Positions 2,885-41,131 of a DNA stretch of 64,000 bases are shown piece after piece. The translations under genes were made by a program, and so were the position numbers. Position 1 is the first letter of the stretch; the number at the start of each line of letters is the position of its first letter. Source of the DNA: Desulfosediminicola ganghwensis (GTDB lineage Bacteria > Desulfobacterota > Desulfobulbia > Desulfobulbales > Desulfocapsaceae); contig NZ_CP050699.1 of the NCBI RefSeq assembly GCF_005116675.2, positions 3,557,001 to 3,621,000 of the forward strand, given 5' to 3'. The notes under the pieces are model-generated. The model had not been told where the DNA came from, made no database searches, and worked only from the letters and a program-made list of their open reading frames with translations.

Positions 2885-4261
2885 ATGTTCAGACTACTCA
2901 CCCTGATTACCCTGTTTTTTCTATCCTCGAATAGTTTCGCTGAAAATAACACCAACGATCTAAACATTTTCTATTCCAATGACCTCCTTGGAGAGCTTGA
3001 GCCCTGCGGTTGAAAGTCAAAACAACTGGGCGGTCTGTCCAGAAGAGCTTTATTGATTGAAGAACTTTCAGCCAACGTCGGCGATGTACTTCTCTTGGAT
3101 GCCGGAAATCTCCTTTTTTCCAGGGATGGAGCAAGGGAATTACTGCAACAGGATGTAGTTACTGCGAGAGGCATTTACGAAATTTATGAAGACCTTGGCT
3201 ATCACGCGATAGCTGTTGGTCCCTACGATCTCACAGCCGGCCTTAGCACAATTACCGACCTCTCGGGCTCGGTACCCTGGATTTCTTCCAATATTATAAC
3301 CCAGGGCGGAGAATACATATTTCCTCCCTGGGTTCTTGTTGAATTTGAAAAACAGAAAATCGGGATTGTGGCGCTGACAGCCACTCCACGAATAGTAAAC
3401 GATAATTACAAGATGCTGGAGTGGAGGGATGCTCTCACTGATGTGTTGACCAGGATCTCTCCTGATTGCGATGCCATCATCCTGCTTTCCTCTTTGGATA
3501 CAGCAACAAATCAACAGATAGCAGAACAATTTTCTGACATCAGCCTCATCCTGACCGCTAATAAGCGGAATGGAAATCGTCCTCCAAAACAGATAGGTGA
3601 TGCGATCACCAGTCAGGTGCAAAGCCGTGGCCGATATCTTGGAGTTCTCACCTTCCCCATGGGGCTGAAAAACCTGCTGGCAGACAATAAGAAAACGGAA
3701 AACTTCCAATACAGGTCGATAGCTCTTCAGCCCAATCTTGAAAAATCACAAGCTATTGATAACAAGGTTGCTGAAATACAACGTGATATAGCAAAAATTG
3801 GCAAGCGTGCGAAATATCAACCCCAGCAAAAAACACAATCAGATACTTCAAACAACCAGTCTGAAATATCTTCTTACAGGACGTGTGTTGATTGCCATAA
3901 GGAAACGGTCGCCAGGTGGGAAAAATCCCCTCACGGTCGGGCATATCAGACCCTGGTAGATAATAATCAGCAATACAACCTTCGTTGTTTGCCCTGCCAT
4001 GTGACTGATTCGGCAAACCAAAAGGCAACAGGGGTTCAATCCATGCAAGCTGATGACCTGAACTATAAACTGCTTCATCTCAGCTCTGAAAAGCAATCCG
4101 TCAGCTGTAGTGCCTGTCACCCAGGCTCCGGACTCCATGCCAAAAACAATGGTAATTTAAGGTATCTGCAAAAAGTTTCTCTAGAGCTATGTATCACATG
4201 CCACACAAAGGAACTGACTGCGGATTTCAACTTCAATAAAAAGAAAAAAGACGTGCACTGA
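2885..4261 (+). CDS. Predicted selenoprotein: degenerate 5'-nucleotidase-like domain plus tetrahaem cytochrome c domain
   Basis: The frame opens at ATG 2885 with a signal peptide (MFRLLTLITLFFLSSNSFA, cleavage near residue 19) and runs to TGA 4259-4261, interrupted only by an in-frame TGA at 3011-3013 (codon 43). The flanking residues, GELEPCG before and KSKQLGGLSRRA after, form one continuous family motif in which, from memory, relatives carry Cys (EPCGC). Reading TGA as selenocysteine gives 458 residues. Residues about 26-250 follow the UshA/5'-nucleotidase scaffold, but its usual metal ligands look replaced (NDLLG for NDLHG, DAGNLL for DAGDLL, VGPYDL for GNHEFD). The C-terminal part has four CXXCH haem sites with first Cys at residues 334, 368, 408 and 436, including SPHGRAY, as in the cytochrome c554-like family. 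It is probably a periplasmic redox protein of unknown substrate. Not recognising the TGA would start the protein at TTG 3053 without a signal peptide. The alternative is a nonsense-mutated pseudogene, less likely because the rest is intact. Confidence 0.82.
3011..3042 (+). promoter_or_regulatory. In-frame UGA (selenocysteine) with bacterial SECIS-like hairpin
   Basis: Directly after the TGA (3011-3013), CTGGGC (3026-3031) pairs with GTCCAG (3037-3042) to give a 6-bp stem with one G-U pair and the apical loop GGTCT. The loop G and U fall at nucleotides 23 and 24 counted from the U of UGA. This is the same place, and nearly the same loop, as in the E. coli fdhF SECIS element bound by SelB (from memory). 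That supports recoding rather than termination. Confidence 0.75.
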
Positions 4262-4448
4262 ACACTACTGAACAACAGAGAGACCGTTAGAGATAAATCA
4301 GTCCTCAAAAAAGAGCAATCCAGTTATTATTGATCCTCAACTGAAGATTTGCGAAGAGATAGGAGATAGGGGTTGGCGTGGTTCTGCTTCAGATCCGGGT
4401 ATCAAAAAGAACACTCAGAGTTCATCTCTTTGACGGACAATAAAAAAA

Positions 4449-33266: not shown

Positions 33267-34256
33267 CTACAGGTTCAATTCAAGCCCCTCACCGGTTTCC
33301 AGGGCGCTTTTCAAAAGGAGGTCAGCGGCTACCAGATCTTGAACCGCTACCCCTACAGATTTGAAAAATGTTATCTCCTGCTCACTTTGTCGAGCTGGAA
33401 GTGTTCCATTTGCGAGTTGACCGAGTTCGGCATGAATGTGGCTCTCAGCGATAAGTCCCGACATAATTGGTTGAACAATGTCGCCAGCCTCGGCAAGACA
33501 CGCGGCTCTTTGATCCACGACCACCGTTGCCCTGGCAACGGTGGCAGGGGGGATTTCGATCATATCAGTTTTATACGCACCAACTGCATTGATATGGGTT
33601 CCAGGCCTGATATGCTTATCATCAAAAAGAGGCGTTGAAGACGGCGTAGCGGTGCAAACAATGTCAGAGGCTTCAAGATATTCCATCGAATCCGCAACCA
33701 GCACACTGATGTTAAGCGTTTCTGCCATTTTCCTGGCAAAGTCCTCAGACTTTTTTTGATTCCTGCCAAACACATATGCTTGCTCTATCGACCTAACAGC
33801 GCATACAGCCTCAAGCTGAGCTTCTCCCTGGGCCCCGGGGCCGAATATAGAAACCACTTTAGCATCTTTTCGTGCAAGATAACTGGTCGCCAATCCAGAA
33901 CCGGCACCGGTTCTCAAAGCGGTTAAAGCTTCTCCATCCATAATTGCCAGTGGCTCACCATTGCTTGAATCAAATAGCATCATCATGGCATGAACAATAG
34001 GTAAGCCTTTAGTGCTGTTTTCTTTGTGATTCGTGACTGTTTTAAGGCCAACTCTATGCAAACCCGGCATGTAGGATGGCATAAATAGCGCATTGCCGTT
34101 ATCAGCCTCAAGTTCCAGCCTTGAGCGAACCGGCACAACCGCCTGATCACTGCTGAGTGCACTGAAGGCGATCTTCATTGCCTCAATACACTTTTCCATG
34201 CTCAGGATTTGCCTGATATCTTTGCCCGAAAAATAGCGTATGGTATTACCTTGCAT
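33267..34256 (-). CDS. Ornithine cyclodeaminase / mu-crystallin family protein
   Basis: The 329-residue protein has the OCD family fold: N-terminal substrate half (KTVTNHKENSTKGLPIVHAM, DGEALTALRTGAGSGLATSY) and a Rossmann domain with VSIFGPGAQGEAQLEAV and VCTATPSSTPLF. Family members are ornithine cyclodeaminases (ornithine to proline) or NAD(P)H-dependent reductases of cyclic imino acids such as pyrroline-2-carboxylate. Either activity would yield proline and feed the proline dehydrogenase/P5C dehydrogenase pair encoded just downstream. It is followed by its own terminator and lies downstream of the TRAP genes, so imported substrate may pass through this enzyme. The exact substrate is not readable. 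Confidence 0.9.
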   Translation of the reverse strand: MQGNTIRYFSGKDIRQILSMEKCIEAMKIAFSALSSDQAVVPVRSRLELEADNGNALFMPSYMPGLHRVGLKTVTNHKENSTKGLPIVHAMMMLFDSSNGEPLAIMDGEALTALRTGAGSGLATSYLARKDAKVVSIFGPGAQGEAQLEAVCAVRSIEQAYVFGRNQKKSEDFARKMAETLNISVLVADSMEYLEASDIVCTATPSSTPLFDDKHIRPGTHINAVGAYKTDMIEIPPATVARATVVVDQRAACLAEAGDIVQPIMSGLIAESHIHAELGQLANGTLPARQSEQEITFFKSVGVAVQDLVAADLLLKSALETGEGLELNL

Positions 34257-34558: not shown

Positions 34559-34711
34559 TTAAAACGGGTCAGGCCATCCTCTTTTCTCTGCAGTGCGTGA
34601 CAAAATTGCAAACAACATAGCAACCAGATACGCCCAGGGTGCTCCGGTGGTTATTGCTGCCAGGAAAAAGGCAAAGCACAGTATTGCAAAGAGATTCCTA
34701 TAAAAATTCAT
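34559..34711 (-). CDS. Small membrane protein of 50 residues linked to the TRAP operon
   Basis: The frame starts at ATG 34711, eight bases after the dctM stop, and ends at TAA 34559. The product has an aromatic, basic start (MNFYRN), one or two hydrophobic helices (LFAILCFAFFLAAI and PWAYLVAMLFAIL), and a polar tail SRTAEKRGWPDPF. The tight spacing implies translational coupling to dctM. The protein is below the usual size cut-off and could be an accessory subunit of the transporter. I know no defined function. A hairpin follows at 34461-34501. Confidence 0.65.
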   Translation of the reverse strand: MNFYRNLFAILCFAFFLAAITTGAPWAYLVAMLFAILSRTAEKRGWPDPF

Positions 34712-34719
34712 ACGTAATA

Positions 34720-36042
34720 CTACCACGGTACGCCCATGATGAAATGGGGCAGGAACAGAGAGATTTTAGGGAAAAATACCGTTACGAAAAGTACCGGGAC
34801 CCAACACAATACAATAAACCATAAGCATGGTCTCATCATCTCGTCGATTGGTGCACCACCTAATCGTCCAGAGAGATAAAGAACTGGTGCCGCAGGTGGA
34901 GTAATGCAACCGAGACCGGTATTAACACCGACAATCGCAGCATAGTGAATGGGGTTAAAGCCCAACTCAATAATGATTGGCATCAGAATAGGAGTTGTAA
35001 GTACAACAACACTGATGTCATCCATCAACATGCCCATGATTACCAGAAAGATATTAATCATGAACATAATCATCAGCGGATCACTTGAAACAGCATAAAA
35101 CACCCCAAGCAATACACCCGGCAAATCTTCAAGGATATACAACCGGCTCAGCATGGCAACAGAATAGAGCATTACCATAATAACGCCTGTGGTCACTGCG
35201 GTTTCTACGATAATCTTATAGGTACCTTTCAGTGTAAGCCCTTTATAGACAAACATGCCGACTGGGATTGCGTAGAGAACTGCCATCGCCGACGCCTCGG
35301 TGGTCGTCATAATACCGCCGTAAATACCGCCGAGCACGATAAACGGCAGCATGAGTGCCGGCAATGCCTGCTTTCCTCTGGTTTGGAAAAGTCGAACTTT
35401 GTCTGCGGTAGTTCTGTCTGTTTTAGCTGCAGCCAATACTTCAGTATTTTTTCGCAGCAACCAGCGATTCGCTGAACAGATCAGAATGATAGTAATAAAT
35501 CCAGGAATTACTGTTGCCAGGAAACAGGCCAGAACTGATTGGCCACTGATCCAGGCAAAGATAATAAGGGTAGCGTTCGGCGGTATGAGTAAACCCAGGA
35601 GGGAGGCGTTGGCCAACAGAGCGGCAACAAGACCTCTCGGGTATCCTTCTGCCTCAAAACGCGGAATCATGATGGAGCCGACACAGGAAAGGGTCGCACA
35701 TGCAGCGCCACAGATTGAGCCAACAATTGCACAGGAGATTGTAGCTACTATTCCCAGTCCACCCTTTAGGTGACCTACAAAAACATCGACAAAATCAATA
35801 AGTTTCTCACCAATCTTGCCTCGTTCCATAATGCCGCCTGCGGCGATAAAAAGAGCGATAGCAAGGAGTGAAACGGAATTCATCTGAGCATAACCGTAGG
35901 GTAGCAGCTGCGAGGCGGCATACCCTTCTCCACCTGGACCGCCGAAGAAAATCAACCAGGCCGCAGAGGCCATAAAGCTTACTGGCACAGGTACACCAAT
36001 AATCAGACAAAATACGAGGATTATCAGGGCTATAAAAATCAT
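34720..36042 (-). CDS. dctM: TRAP transporter large permease, DctM family
   Basis: The 440-residue protein is the main channel-forming subunit of a tripartite ATP-independent periplasmic transporter, with about 12 hydrophobic segments. Family motifs are ALFIAAGGIMERGKIGEKL, GGLGIVATISCAIVGSICGA, GYPRGLVAALLANASLLGLLIPPN, GIYGGIMTTTEASAMAVLYA, GMLMDDISVVVLTTPILMPI, and GCITPPAAPVLYLSGRLGGA. It drives uptake with a Na+ or H+ gradient. The ATG follows the dctQ stop directly, so the two are translationally coupled. Substrate: unknown carboxylate, possibly an amino or imino acid given the surrounding enzymes. Confidence 0.96.
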   Translation of the reverse strand: MIFIALIILVFCLIIGVPVPVSFMASAAWLIFFGGPGGEGYAASQLLPYGYAQMNSVSLLAIALFIAAGGIMERGKIGEKLIDFVDVFVGHLKGGLGIVATISCAIVGSICGAACATLSCVGSIMIPRFEAEGYPRGLVAALLANASLLGLLIPPNATLIIFAWISGQSVLACFLATVIPGFITIILICSANRWLLRKNTEVLAAAKTDRTTADKVRLFQTRGKQALPALMLPFIVLGGIYGGIMTTTEASAMAVLYAIPVGMFVYKGLTLKGTYKIIVETAVTTGVIMVMLYSVAMLSRLYILEDLPGVLLGVFYAVSSDPLMIMFMINIFLVIMGMLMDDISVVVLTTPILMPIIIELGFNPIHYAAIVGVNTGLGCITPPAAPVLYLSGRLGGAPIDEMMRPCLWFIVLCWVPVLFVTVFFPKISLFLPHFIMGVPW

Positions 36043-36621
36043 TTATCTTGCCCTCCTGAAAAGTGCACGGGCGCTTTGAATAAGATCTCTCATGAAGTAG
36101 TAAGCCATAAAAGCAAGCCCCAGGAAGACGGAAAGATAGCCAACCCAGAAAGGTATCCTCCATACGGTGGTTTTAGGAATAGCAATTCCAGTTCCGAGCG
36201 GACCAGCGTAACCAAACATGAAGAATTCCCAGCCGTACCAGACAAAAAGGAGGCAAACGCTGACAGTTATCAAGTTCCTCAGGAATATCAATGAGTTTTT
36301 AAGTGTTCCGTATGACAGGTACGCATTTACAAGATCTGCTGAAACGTGAGTGCGATTATAGGCGCCGATGGCTGCACCGAGAAAATAGAGCCAGAAAGCC
36401 AGAATTTTAACCCATTCCTCATATCCGTACAGGTCACCTTGCACGACATAGCGGAAAAAGGTCGCGGCACAAATAATCAAGGTCAGAGCTGCAGTGGCCG
36501 CGAAGCAAATAGCGGAGAATGAACCAATAGCTATCCGGTCAAAAAGATTTCTTGGGGCATTAAAAAGATTTATGCAATCAGAAGTGTTAGTGCATTGAGT
36601 TTCTATTTTGTTATCTGACAC
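36043..36621 (-). CDS. dctQ: TRAP transporter small permease, DctQ family
   Basis: The 192-residue protein has four hydrophobic segments and the DctQ signatures YEEWVKILAFWLYFLGAAIGAYNRTHVSADLV and WRIPFWVGYLSVFLGLAFMA, quoted here only in part as landmarks. It forms the small membrane subunit that docks the binding protein to DctM. It starts with GTG at 36621 behind a strong GAGGGAG ribosome site and ends directly at dctM. An inverted repeat separates it from dctP. Confidence 0.93.
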   Translation of the reverse strand: MSDNKIETQCTNTSDCINLFNAPRNLFDRIAIGSFSAICFAATAALTLIICAATFFRYVVQGDLYGYEEWVKILAFWLYFLGAAIGAYNRTHVSADLVNAYLSYGTLKNSLIFLRNLITVSVCLLFVWYGWEFFMFGYAGPLGTGIAIPKTTVWRIPFWVGYLSVFLGLAFMAYYFMRDLIQSARALFRRAR

Positions 36622-36718: not shown

Positions 36719-37729
36719 TTACTTAGGAGCGAGCTCGGTTCTGAATTCGTCCATGAGTTCCTTGGTCATGTTTTTCTCAAGCTTTGGCCAAGTCTCAGCA
36801 ACAGCCTTCATCATTGGAGCGAGCTCTTCCTTGCTGTAAGTAACAACCTCAATGCCTTTCTCTTTCATGAGGTTCATGTAATGCTCATCAACGCTCTTAG
36901 CGTTTTCAATACTACTGATGGTAGCACGGGAGAGGATATCCTGAATTACTGCCTGATCTGCAGCACTGATCTTCGCCCAGGTCTGGCCGCTGATCATGAA
37001 ATTGAGGATCTCCATGGAATAGTTGGTTGCATACCAGTGCTTGATTACATCGCCAAGAGCGGTGTAAGCAGCTGCGGTCGGATAACCATTAACGCCATCA
37101 ACAACGCCAGTCTGGATCGCCTGGTAAACGTCAGAATACGGCACGGTTACAGTTCTGTAACCCATTGCCTCTGCAGCCAGTTTGTAAACATCCATGTTAG
37201 GCACACGAACGAGAACGCCCTGATCAGCAGCAGGATTCAAAGGATCTTTTGCAGGCTTGGTGGTACCGGTACCAATCATACCCTCAACGAAGAAGCCGAG
37301 AAGCTTGACGCCAAGTCTCTCGTTGAACTCATTCATTTTACCGAAGAGCCATCCGTCCTGCGCGAGAACGTTCTTCACGTCATCGTAGTCACCAACAAAA
37401 CCGTTGATGTAAATCAGTTCCATGCGTGGATCGAACTGGCTAGGAACAGAGATACATGACATATCGATGGTGCCACGAATCTGCTCTTCATATACCAGGC
37501 TGTAATCACCAAGCTGGTTAGCAGGGTATACTTTTACCTCGATGCGGCCGTCGGTCTTCTCCGCAATCTCTTTCGCAACATCTTCCATCATCTTACTGGC
37601 TGGATGATCAGAAGCATTCTGTCCGGCAAACTTGAGTACCATCTCCGGCTTAGCGAAAGCTGAACCACCAAATGCAAGCAGTGTACTTGCCAGGGCGATA
37701 CAAACAACAGACTTGAATTTAGAACTCAT
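36719..37729 (-). CDS. dctP: TRAP transporter solute-binding protein, DctP family
   Basis: The 336-residue periplasmic protein has a signal peptide (basic MSSKFK, hydrophobic core, cleavage after SAFA near residue 26). The DctP fold follows: LKFAGQNASDHPASKMMEDV, YPANQLGDYSLVYEEQIRGT, VRVPNMDVYKLAAEAMGYRT with the carboxylate-binding Arg region, PYSDVYQAIQTGVVDG, and EILNFMISGQTWAKI. It captures the solute for DctQM. An AGGAGAG ribosome site precedes the ATG. A 17-bp motif at 38090-38106 may regulate its promoter. Confidence 0.95.
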   Translation of the reverse strand: MSSKFKSVVCIALASTLLAFGGSAFAKPEMVLKFAGQNASDHPASKMMEDVAKEIAEKTDGRIEVKVYPANQLGDYSLVYEEQIRGTIDMSCISVPSQFDPRMELIYINGFVGDYDDVKNVLAQDGWLFGKMNEFNERLGVKLLGFFVEGMIGTGTTKPAKDPLNPAADQGVLVRVPNMDVYKLAAEAMGYRTVTVPYSDVYQAIQTGVVDGVNGYPTAAAYTALGDVIKHWYATNYSMEILNFMISGQTWAKISAADQAVIQDILSRATISSIENAKSVDEHYMNLMKEKGIEVVTYSKEELAPMMKAVAETWPKLEKNMTKELMDEFRTELAPK

Positions 37730-39365: not shown

Positions 39366-39583
39366 TCCGCTGTTACATGCTCGTTTAGCGTTGGTTTCTT
39401 CAGATAGTAAGATCGCCTTACTGGGGCACTGGTTGTGCTCTTGCCCTTCTTTCCATAAGGATTCAACCCTGTGGAACTTAGCCAACGCGGTGGTTGTTGA
39501 ATAATATTCTATTACCTGATTACTATAGATAGATTACTGATTAATTTTCCTGATCATCAATTGCAATGAGGAGTATCCAGAGA

Positions 39584-41131
39584 ATGCATATCCCAAGCAT
39601 ACTGAACGATGTCATAGGACCTGTTATGCGTGGCCCTTCGAGTTCACACAGTGCTGCGGCAGTGCGCATTGGCCAAATTGGCAAAGAGCTGATGGGCGGA
39701 GAACTCGACAAAGTGACTGTTCGTTTTGACCTGTCCGGCTCTCTACCAACTACTTACATTTCACAAGGTTCTGACATGGGGCTCTGTGGCGGTTTATTAG
39801 GTTTTACAGCCGATGATGCTCGCCTTGTCAATTATAAAGAAGAGTTACAAAAATCAGGATTGACCATCACATATATCAACGACAACTTCGGCGATCCGCA
39901 TCCCAACACTTACAACCTCAGCCTTCGAAATGGGAAGGAACAGCACCACATGGTGGCGATATCTCTAGGTGGAGGGATGATTGAATTAATAGCTATCGAC
40001 GACGTGCCGATATCCTTTTACGGCGATAGCCACGCTATCGTTATCTGGACCGATTCAGCTGATTCAGAATTGCTGGAATTGTTAAACGACGCCAATATAG
40101 AGCACATTACCGGCAATAACAGTGATGAGACTATCTGCTTTGCCCGACAGGAAACACCTTTTGACGGTGTATTCCTCGAAAAACTTTCCAGTTTGAGCAG
40201 TGTCTCAAAGGTCAGGCCACTTTCTCCGGTTCTGCCTATTCTCACCTCCACGAAAACGTCTGTACCTTTTGCCAACGCTCTTGAACTTTCAGGTTATGCG
40301 GATAAACATGGAATAACCGATCTTGCCGACCTGGCACTTCATTATGAATCGCAACGCGGCAACGTCAGTCAGGAAGACGTTCTTGCCCAAATGACTGATA
40401 TTGTCGAAATACTCGAAAAATCAATTCAAAGCGGTTTGCAGGGTACCGATTATGAAGACAGAATACTTGGCTACCAATCAGGCATGTATCTCAAATGTGA
40501 AGCTGCAGGCACCTTGCTGGATCTCGGAGTGCTCAACCGGGTCATACCGTATGTTACAGCTTTAATGGAAGTTAAAAGTTCACTCGGAGTTATAGTCGCT
40601 GCACCCACTGCCGGCTCCTGCGGTGGGCTGCCAGGAACAGTTATAGCTGCTGCAGACTCTATGAATCTGGACAGACATGCAAAAGTCAGGGCACTCCTTG
40701 CTGCTGGTGCCATAGGAGTACTTGTTGCAACCAAGAGCACATTCTCTGCCGAAATTTGTGGCTGCCAGGCTGAGTGCGGCGTCTCCTCCGGCATGATCGC
40801 TGCAGCAATGGTGTCAATGATGGGGGGGAACTACAACACCTCCCTCGCCGCTGCCTCCATTGCCCTGCAAAACAGTTTTGGCATGGTCTGCGATCCTGTT
40901 GCCAACCGTGTGGAAGTTCCATGCCTTGGCAAAAATATACTTGCGGCCAGCAATGGGCTTTCTGCAGCCAACATAGCCCTGGCAGGATTTGACCATGTCG
41001 TTGATTTTGATGATGTCGTACAAACAATGGATGCTGTTGGCCGGGCAATCCCTCATGAATTGCGCTGTACAGGATTAGGAGGGCTGTCGCTCACCCCAGT
41101 ATCCCAAAAACTCGATCAGAGGTTAAACTGA
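39584..41131 (+). CDS. L-serine dehydratase, iron-sulfur type, beta and alpha domains in one chain
   Basis: ATG 39584 is preferred because GAGGAG stands about ten bases before it and relatives begin at IPSILNDVIGPV; a frame start at 39566 is possible. The protein of about 515 residues has the beta domain first (GPVMRGPSSSHSAAAVRIG, ISLGGGMIEL) and the alpha domain second (AAPTAGSCGGLPGTVIA, ICGCQAECGVSSGMIAAAM, CDPVANRVEVPCLGKNIL). The Cys residues of the latter two motifs bind an oxygen-labile 4Fe-4S cluster. The enzyme deaminates L-serine to pyruvate and ammonia. It follows the gntR gene by about 220 bases and may belong to the same amino acid catabolic locus. Related substrates cannot be excluded. 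Confidence 0.9.
   Translation: MHIPSILNDVIGPVMRGPSSSHSAAAVRIGQIGKELMGGELDKVTVRFDLSGSLPTTYISQGSDMGLCGGLLGFTADDARLVNYKEELQKSGLTITYINDNFGDPHPNTYNLSLRNGKEQHHMVAISLGGGMIELIAIDDVPISFYGDSHAIVIWTDSADSELLELLNDANIEHITGNNSDETICFARQETPFDGVFLEKLSSLSSVSKVRPLSPVLPILTSTKTSVPFANALELSGYADKHGITDLADLALHYESQRGNVSQEDVLAQMTDIVEILEKSIQSGLQGTDYEDRILGYQSGMYLKCEAAGTLLDLGVLNRVIPYVTALMEVKSSLGVIVAAPTAGSCGGLPGTVIAAADSMNLDRHAKVRALLAAGAIGVLVATKSTFSAEICGCQAECGVSSGMIAAAMVSMMGGNYNTSLAAASIALQNSFGMVCDPVANRVEVPCLGKNILAASNGLSAANIALAGFDHVVDFDDVVQTMDAVGRAIPHELRCTGLGGLSLTPVSQKLDQRLN

Follow-up and report, generated by a model that had tools for sequence, protein, structure and literature searches.

In Desulfosediminicola ganghwensis, the gene cluster of a TRAP transporter closes with a frame of 50 codons, here called S50, which by its pattern of sequence change is a protein-coding gene under purifying selection. 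We think it reasonably probable, from gene order and sequence comparisons, that S50 is a genuine small protein, encoded as the fourth member of a dctPQM-S50 cluster, and would act as an accessory membrane subunit of that one DctQM permease. TRAP transporters have been described as three-part systems (PMC9971032, in excerpt), and the best reading of our comparisons is that S50 would be a lineage-specific protein, comparable to CydX or KdpF, and not a general fourth TRAP component. The window referred to below is the 64,000-nucleotide stretch of this genome that was analysed, and coordinates are positions in it unless another locus is named.

The S50 gene and its cluster

S50 lies on the minus strand at 34711-34559, with its ATG at 34711-34709 and a TAA stop at 34561-34559, and encodes a predicted two-helix membrane protein of 50 residues. 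Translation of this strand gives MNFYRNLFAILCFAFFLAAITTGAPWAYLVAMLFAILSRTAEKRGWPDPF followed by the stop, while the plus-strand reading of 34559-34711 is interrupted by a stop codon. The earlier note on this DNA had described a frame of 50 residues ending in GWPDPF, without naming a strand, and the minus-strand translation bears this out. The gene is the last of a cluster that runs, all on the minus strand, in the order dctP (36719..37729; TRAP substrate-binding protein, 336 aa), dctQ (36043..36621; small permease, 192 aa), dctM (34720..36042; large permease, 440 aa) and S50. The identity of the cluster is clear from family matches: DctM matched PF06808 with 276.3 bits (cut-off 23.8; E 5.2e-82) and TIGR00786 with 305 (cut-off 268.45), DctQ matched PF04290 with 62.8 bits (cut-off 28.3; E 4e-17), and the DctP-type binding protein matched PF03480 with 150.2 bits (cut-off 23.4; E 1e-43) and exceeded the cut-off of NF037995. 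The dctM stop codon occupies 34722-34720 and the ATG of S50 follows after a gap of 8 nt (34712..34719), just the eight bases that had been noticed before. The next gene downstream, of the ornithine cyclodeaminase/mu-crystallin family (33267..34256, minus; PF02423), lies outside the proposed complex.

An alternative GTG start at 34726 would yield a 55-aa form overlapping dctM. In the alignment of relatives, however, the conserved part begins at the ATG, which is kept in 13 of 13 copies, and this counts against the longer form. On inspection, the 8-nt gap before the window copy holds no clear Shine-Dalgarno sequence; AGGAG is present in the corresponding gap of other loci, for instance L040 and L047. 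Promoter-like sites around the cluster were no more frequent than expected by chance (6 found, 8.3 expected). The frame had also been thought too short for most gene callers, which is doubtful, given that a 52-aa hypothetical protein stands in a RefSeq record (locus 4111-4269).

The coding evidence comes from comparison of the 13 copies. Pairwise differences at the first, second and third codon positions numbered 656, 479 and 1935, respectively. The S50 frame is open in all 13 loci; the other two frames of its strand are open in 0 and 5 of them, and the three of the opposite strand in 4, 0 and 1. Nucleotide identities from this comparison were set aside, as one record contains dctM in part, gap lengths vary and stretches that do not align had been forced together. 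The ratio dN/dS had a median of 0.098 and a maximum of 0.215 (median dN 0.149, dS 1.73), values that rest on the 36 of 78 pairs with finite dS, since dS was not computable in the other 42. The earlier note had held that a frame not conserved in orthologous loci, or an excess of non-synonymous change, would speak against it; we found the frame kept in 13 of 13 such loci, under purifying selection and free of any such excess. It is scarcely credible, then, that the frame is no gene, whether a chance opening or a remnant of dctM. Its shortness and the want of a clear Shine-Dalgarno sequence in the window copy would fit that explanation, but the third-position pattern, a dN/dS of about 0.1, the conserved start and the frame open in every locus do not, nor does the lack of profile similarity to DctM or DctQ. 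Derivation of S50 from helices of DctQ or DctM was rejected as a candidate origin (profile comparison probabilities of 2.5 and 1.5 on a per-cent scale).

Behind the gene, 55 nt past its stop codon, lies the hairpin that had been reported to follow the frame, at 34503-34459 (minus); its 19-bp stem is perfect and its loop has 7 nt. Its stem score was reached by none of 200 mononucleotide shuffles, and the fold of the region has z = -5.0, with 0 of 200 shuffles as good. The hairpin may, at a guess, mark the end of the transcript; a terminator role is no firmer than that because the consensus scan for intrinsic terminators does not list 34503-34459. Among the relatives, one (L042) has a strong hairpin and then a T run behind S50 (0/200 shuffles) and another (L048) a hairpin matched by 10 of 200 shuffles; two have none, and in the others the hairpin was matched by 22 to 157 of 200.

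Distribution and linkage to one TRAP transporter

A profile built from 11 members found S50 in 13 of the 93 genomes of the family Desulfocapsaceae and in 13 of the 257 genomes of the order, the carriers belonging to five genera, all of one family. No further convincing S50 appeared in a phylum sample of 395 genomes, the own genome included; two partial matches there (E 0.002 and 0.004), in frames of 333 and 162 residues, were weak and unconvincing. In a first BLAST search, 31 of 58 genomes gave matches at E <=1, of which 9 were convincing (E 1.3e-16 or better) and 22 were not accepted as too weak (E 0.004 or worse). The own genome has one convincing copy, a second match at E 1.88 not being accepted. 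Named carriers, from a scan of GTDB genome contigs, are Desulforhopalus singaporensis DSM 12130, a species of the Desulfocapsaceae, and the metagenome-assembled genome Desulfobulbaceae bacterium BRH_c16a. Outside the phylum, the search covered plasmid records, viral contigs, protein-family and PDB libraries, and the GTDB contig scan, which reached close relatives only. Plasmid records gave no match up to E 10 and viral contigs no S50; spread via plasmids or viruses was rejected on these grounds. When viral contigs were used to deepen the alignment for folding, they gave two distant DctM pieces only, which were left aside. S50 (P0001) matched no Pfam or NCBIfam family, its profile had no match among PDB sequences up to E 10, and the 11 members gave weak, scattered Pfam matches only, shared by at most two members each (best E 0.025).

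The 13 of the 257 order genomes that carry S50 are also the ones whose dctM is 79% or more identical to that of the window, and the order search found no dctM of at least 79% identity without S50. The next-best dctM reached 44% identity among the order genomes and 49% among those of the phylum sample, with the best few candidates per genome scored. S50 starts 6-13 nt after dctM in all 13 loci, and it remains in place as the surrounding genes vary; even in G091, where dctM is split over two contig ends, S50 stands behind the fragment on one of them. The coupling to dctM claimed earlier thus holds as strict synteny and near-adjacency, and in 13 of 13 loci S50 has the mark of an accessory subunit, namely a small hydrophobic protein co-encoded and co-inherited with its partner. 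The linkage could partly reflect shared descent of one cluster because the 13 genomes come from one family and five genera. With G091 excluded, pairwise identity over the other 12 genomes averages 75.6% for S50, which is higher than the 69.4% of DctQ, 76.6% for DctP and 83.0% for DctM. The identities of S50 correlate less well with those of DctP, DctQ and DctM (rho 0.50-0.59) than the latter do among themselves (0.73-0.81), a point against the subunit reading, although the 50 residues of S50 give noisy values.

Such constancy also bears on whether S50 might be a small hydrophobic toxin or a leader peptide that sits in the cluster by chance. This is very improbable: nothing beyond size and hydrophobicity speaks for it, whereas the position is constant in 13 of 13 loci, behind dctM and not ahead of the cluster, the own genome holds one convincing copy, and none occurs on plasmids or viral contigs. 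An accessory subunit of the permease is the reading we keep.

The S50-bearing transporters differ from their homologues in other respects too. In an alignment of 12 S50-bearing DctMs, 26 invariant columns carry a residue absent from all 13 S50-less homologues, among them DctM residues 156, 247 and 251, with PPN for PPS and TTTEAS for TPTEAA, positions that we take to be at the substrate/ion site. Around DctM residues 35-39, 4-5 residues are absent in 12 S50-less DctMs covering the site. The N-terminal tail of DctQ seems longer in S50-bearing systems than in most S50-less homologues, with start codons set mechanically. Given that the S50 carriers form one clade, these clade-specific features of DctM and DctQ are not assignable to S50.

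Other TRAP systems were searched for a similar frame. DctM is matched 27 times in the own genome, twice within one frame, and no S50-like frame was found behind the others. From the family, 40 further dctM 3' ends were taken, the best-scoring among the matches listed, of which 39 were long enough, and small frames of 28-110 aa were sought with a start at -15 to +60 of the candidate stop and a mean hydrophobicity over 15 residues of at least 2.3 (S50, 2.71). None of these 39 ends was followed by a similarly hydrophobic small frame; when the limit was lowered to 1.8, two frames appeared among the 40 ends (L119 and L122), both at 1.81 compared with 2.71 for S50. Among the loci of the own genome, L082 and L106 have nothing S50-like behind dctM, and L089 has a hydrophobic frame of 137 aa with a TTG start at +55, unlike S50. 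At 25 loci (23 distinct places) with DctM homologues no more than 51% identical, none has an S50-like frame, and 3 have some small hydrophobic frame within 400 nt, so DctM homologues about 50% identical manage without S50. A small ORF annotated behind the dctM of Leisingera was set aside as polar and not S50-like. Since no S50-like frame was found behind other TRAP systems, S50 does not behave as a general fourth component of these transporters. The suggestion in the earlier note of a fourth TRAP component is therefore plausible for one orthologous transporter, but it does not extend to the other TRAP systems of the genome and family, which have no similar frame.

Neighbouring genes and candidate substrate

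Genes near the transporter give hints of its substrate. In neighbourhood stretches of up to 20 kb each, proline dehydrogenase (ProDH), P5C dehydrogenase (P5CDH) or a glycyl radical enzyme of the hydroxyproline-dehydratase type occurs at 9 of 13 loci. Counted singly over the 13 loci, window included, ornithine-cyclodeaminase-family genes occur at 7, serine-dehydratase-like genes at 7, ProDH at 6, P5CDH at 5 and hydroxyproline-dehydratase-type genes at 4; a relative of the ornithine cyclodeaminase family is thus near the transporter at 6 of the 12 other loci. Of the four dehydratases, the one that was scanned exceeds the cut-off of the NCBIfam model for trans-4-hydroxy-L-proline dehydratase (1200.8 bits, cut-off 1100); its activase falls below its own NCBIfam cut-off (344 against 425). 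Outside the window, the own genome has two trans-4-hydroxyproline dehydratases over cut-off, and together with these genes its 27 DctM matches mark it as rich in TRAP systems. Among more distant homologues, that of Leisingera (DctM 51% identical) has neighbours annotated as proline racemase family, RidA and D-amino acid dehydrogenase, the racemase-like protein being below the family cut-offs. That of Paracoccus (49%) is without such neighbours, and the window's pathway genes are not near the homologues in G349 (51%) and G233 (43%). No solved DctP relative was found at E 1e-20 or better, so there is no substrate clue from that side. On the basis of the neighbour genes, we infer with moderate confidence that this transporter takes up proline, hydroxyproline or another imino acid of that kind.

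Three further genes deserve mention. The window encodes a fused serine-dehydratase-like protein, with beta and alpha parts, at 39566-41131 (plus), which has relatives at 7 of 13 loci, two of them about 31% identical. The ornithine-cyclodeaminase-family protein at 33267-34256 (minus) has relatives at 7 of 13 loci including the window, two of them 47-48% identical. Both enzymes, alongside the proline genes, might at a guess act on a hydroxylated imino acid in a dehydratase-reductase route. Two genomes of the genus encode a PrdR-like sigma-54 regulator (L043:3566-5341 and the corresponding cluster of L044), located two genes ahead of dctP; compared with PrdR, the L043 protein scores 399 bits, below the cut-off of 795.

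The frequency of proline, hydroxyproline and ornithine-cyclodeaminase-family genes among the neighbours is what one would expect if S50 served this pathway instead of the permease, say by anchoring a nearby catabolic enzyme in the membrane. No pathway gene, however, is found in all 13 stretches (up to 20 kb), whereas dctM is, and we regard such a role as distinctly improbable next to that of a permease subunit.

Predicted topology, proposed role and known systems

From three sequences, AlphaFold2 predicted two helices in S50, at residues 3-22 and 25-44, with a break just ahead of a conserved proline, in line with the one or two hydrophobic helices noticed before. The model is shallow (mean pLDDT 74.5, pTM 0.41), and the packing of the helices is not visible in its output. 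Residues 1-7 carry a net charge of 0 to +2 and the tail one of +1 to +6, and the turn is neutral in 12 of 13 copies. This pattern suggests a membrane hairpin with both termini in the cytoplasm. S50 would thus insert as a hairpin, may pack, at a guess from precedent, beside the scaffold of DctQ and DctM, and could there stabilise or tune the permease. In the solved SiaQM, both termini of M lie outside, in the periplasm, those of Q lie inside, and Q is believed to enlarge the scaffold (PMC9971032, in excerpt). With M ending in the periplasm, S50 would not be simply fusable to its end, which would fit its being a separate gene.

The same synteny would be predicted if S50 were a regulator made with the transporter, turning it down or up or reporting its state, as SgrT and AcrZ do for other transporters, and not needed for assembly. 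Small proteins that modulate transporters, such as AcrZ, KdpF and SgrT, are known (PMC7267776, in excerpt). We nevertheless hold this to be rather unlikely, as presence in 13 of 13 orthologous clusters and a conservation above that of DctQ fit a constant part of the permease somewhat better. In its boldest form, which we put forward tentatively, this constant part would make one TRAP clade, probably one for proline or hydroxyproline, a four-part machine: the S50 hairpin would be an indispensable third subunit in the membrane and would add to the scaffold along which the elevator domain moves.

In the literature we found no small, fourth or accessory TRAP component linked to DctM, and no work on TRAP transporters of Desulfocapsaceae, which is weak evidence of novelty, since subscription journals were poorly covered. 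In one review, the passages on additional features include a helix linking fused Q and M, and the terms TeaD, DUF1850 and auxiliary are absent from it (PMC5812351). With a conserved small membrane protein bound to one of their clades through gene order, TRAP transporters would join those with small accessory subunits. S50 would offer direct access to the question of what stabilises the fixed scaffold in an elevator transporter, and DctQM purified from such clades may miss a natural part.

Among amino-acid transporters, MetS is a small subunit of about 60 aa of the methionine transporter MetP, encoded beside this secondary transporter; S50, in contrast, has no Pfam match to such a family. Compared with TRAP systems of the DctP/DctQ/DctM type, such as SiaPQM, all three classical parts are encoded here too, as judged by family matches. 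However, the solved SiaQM consists of one Q and one M (PMC9971032, in excerpt), whereas the orthologous clusters found here, 13 of 13, encode a fourth, small protein as well. KdpF of the Kdp potassium transporter and AcrZ of AcrB are small proteins acting on a transporter (PMC7267776, in excerpt), and S50 is putatively alike, although it matches no Pfam family and would have a TRAP secondary transporter as its partner. CydX and its analogues CydY and CydZ are small transmembrane proteins tied to particular CydA clades (PMC4325964, in excerpt). As described in such excerpts, CydX of E. coli has 37 aa and is counted among the single-helix small proteins (PMC6005532), with another partner and a function that has been shown, whereas S50 has 50 aa, two predicted helices and a role assigned by inference. 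Nevertheless, CydX, CydY and CydZ are the nearest precedent, being encoded behind the large subunits and tied to a clade of the main subunit, as S50 is (PMC4325964, in excerpt).
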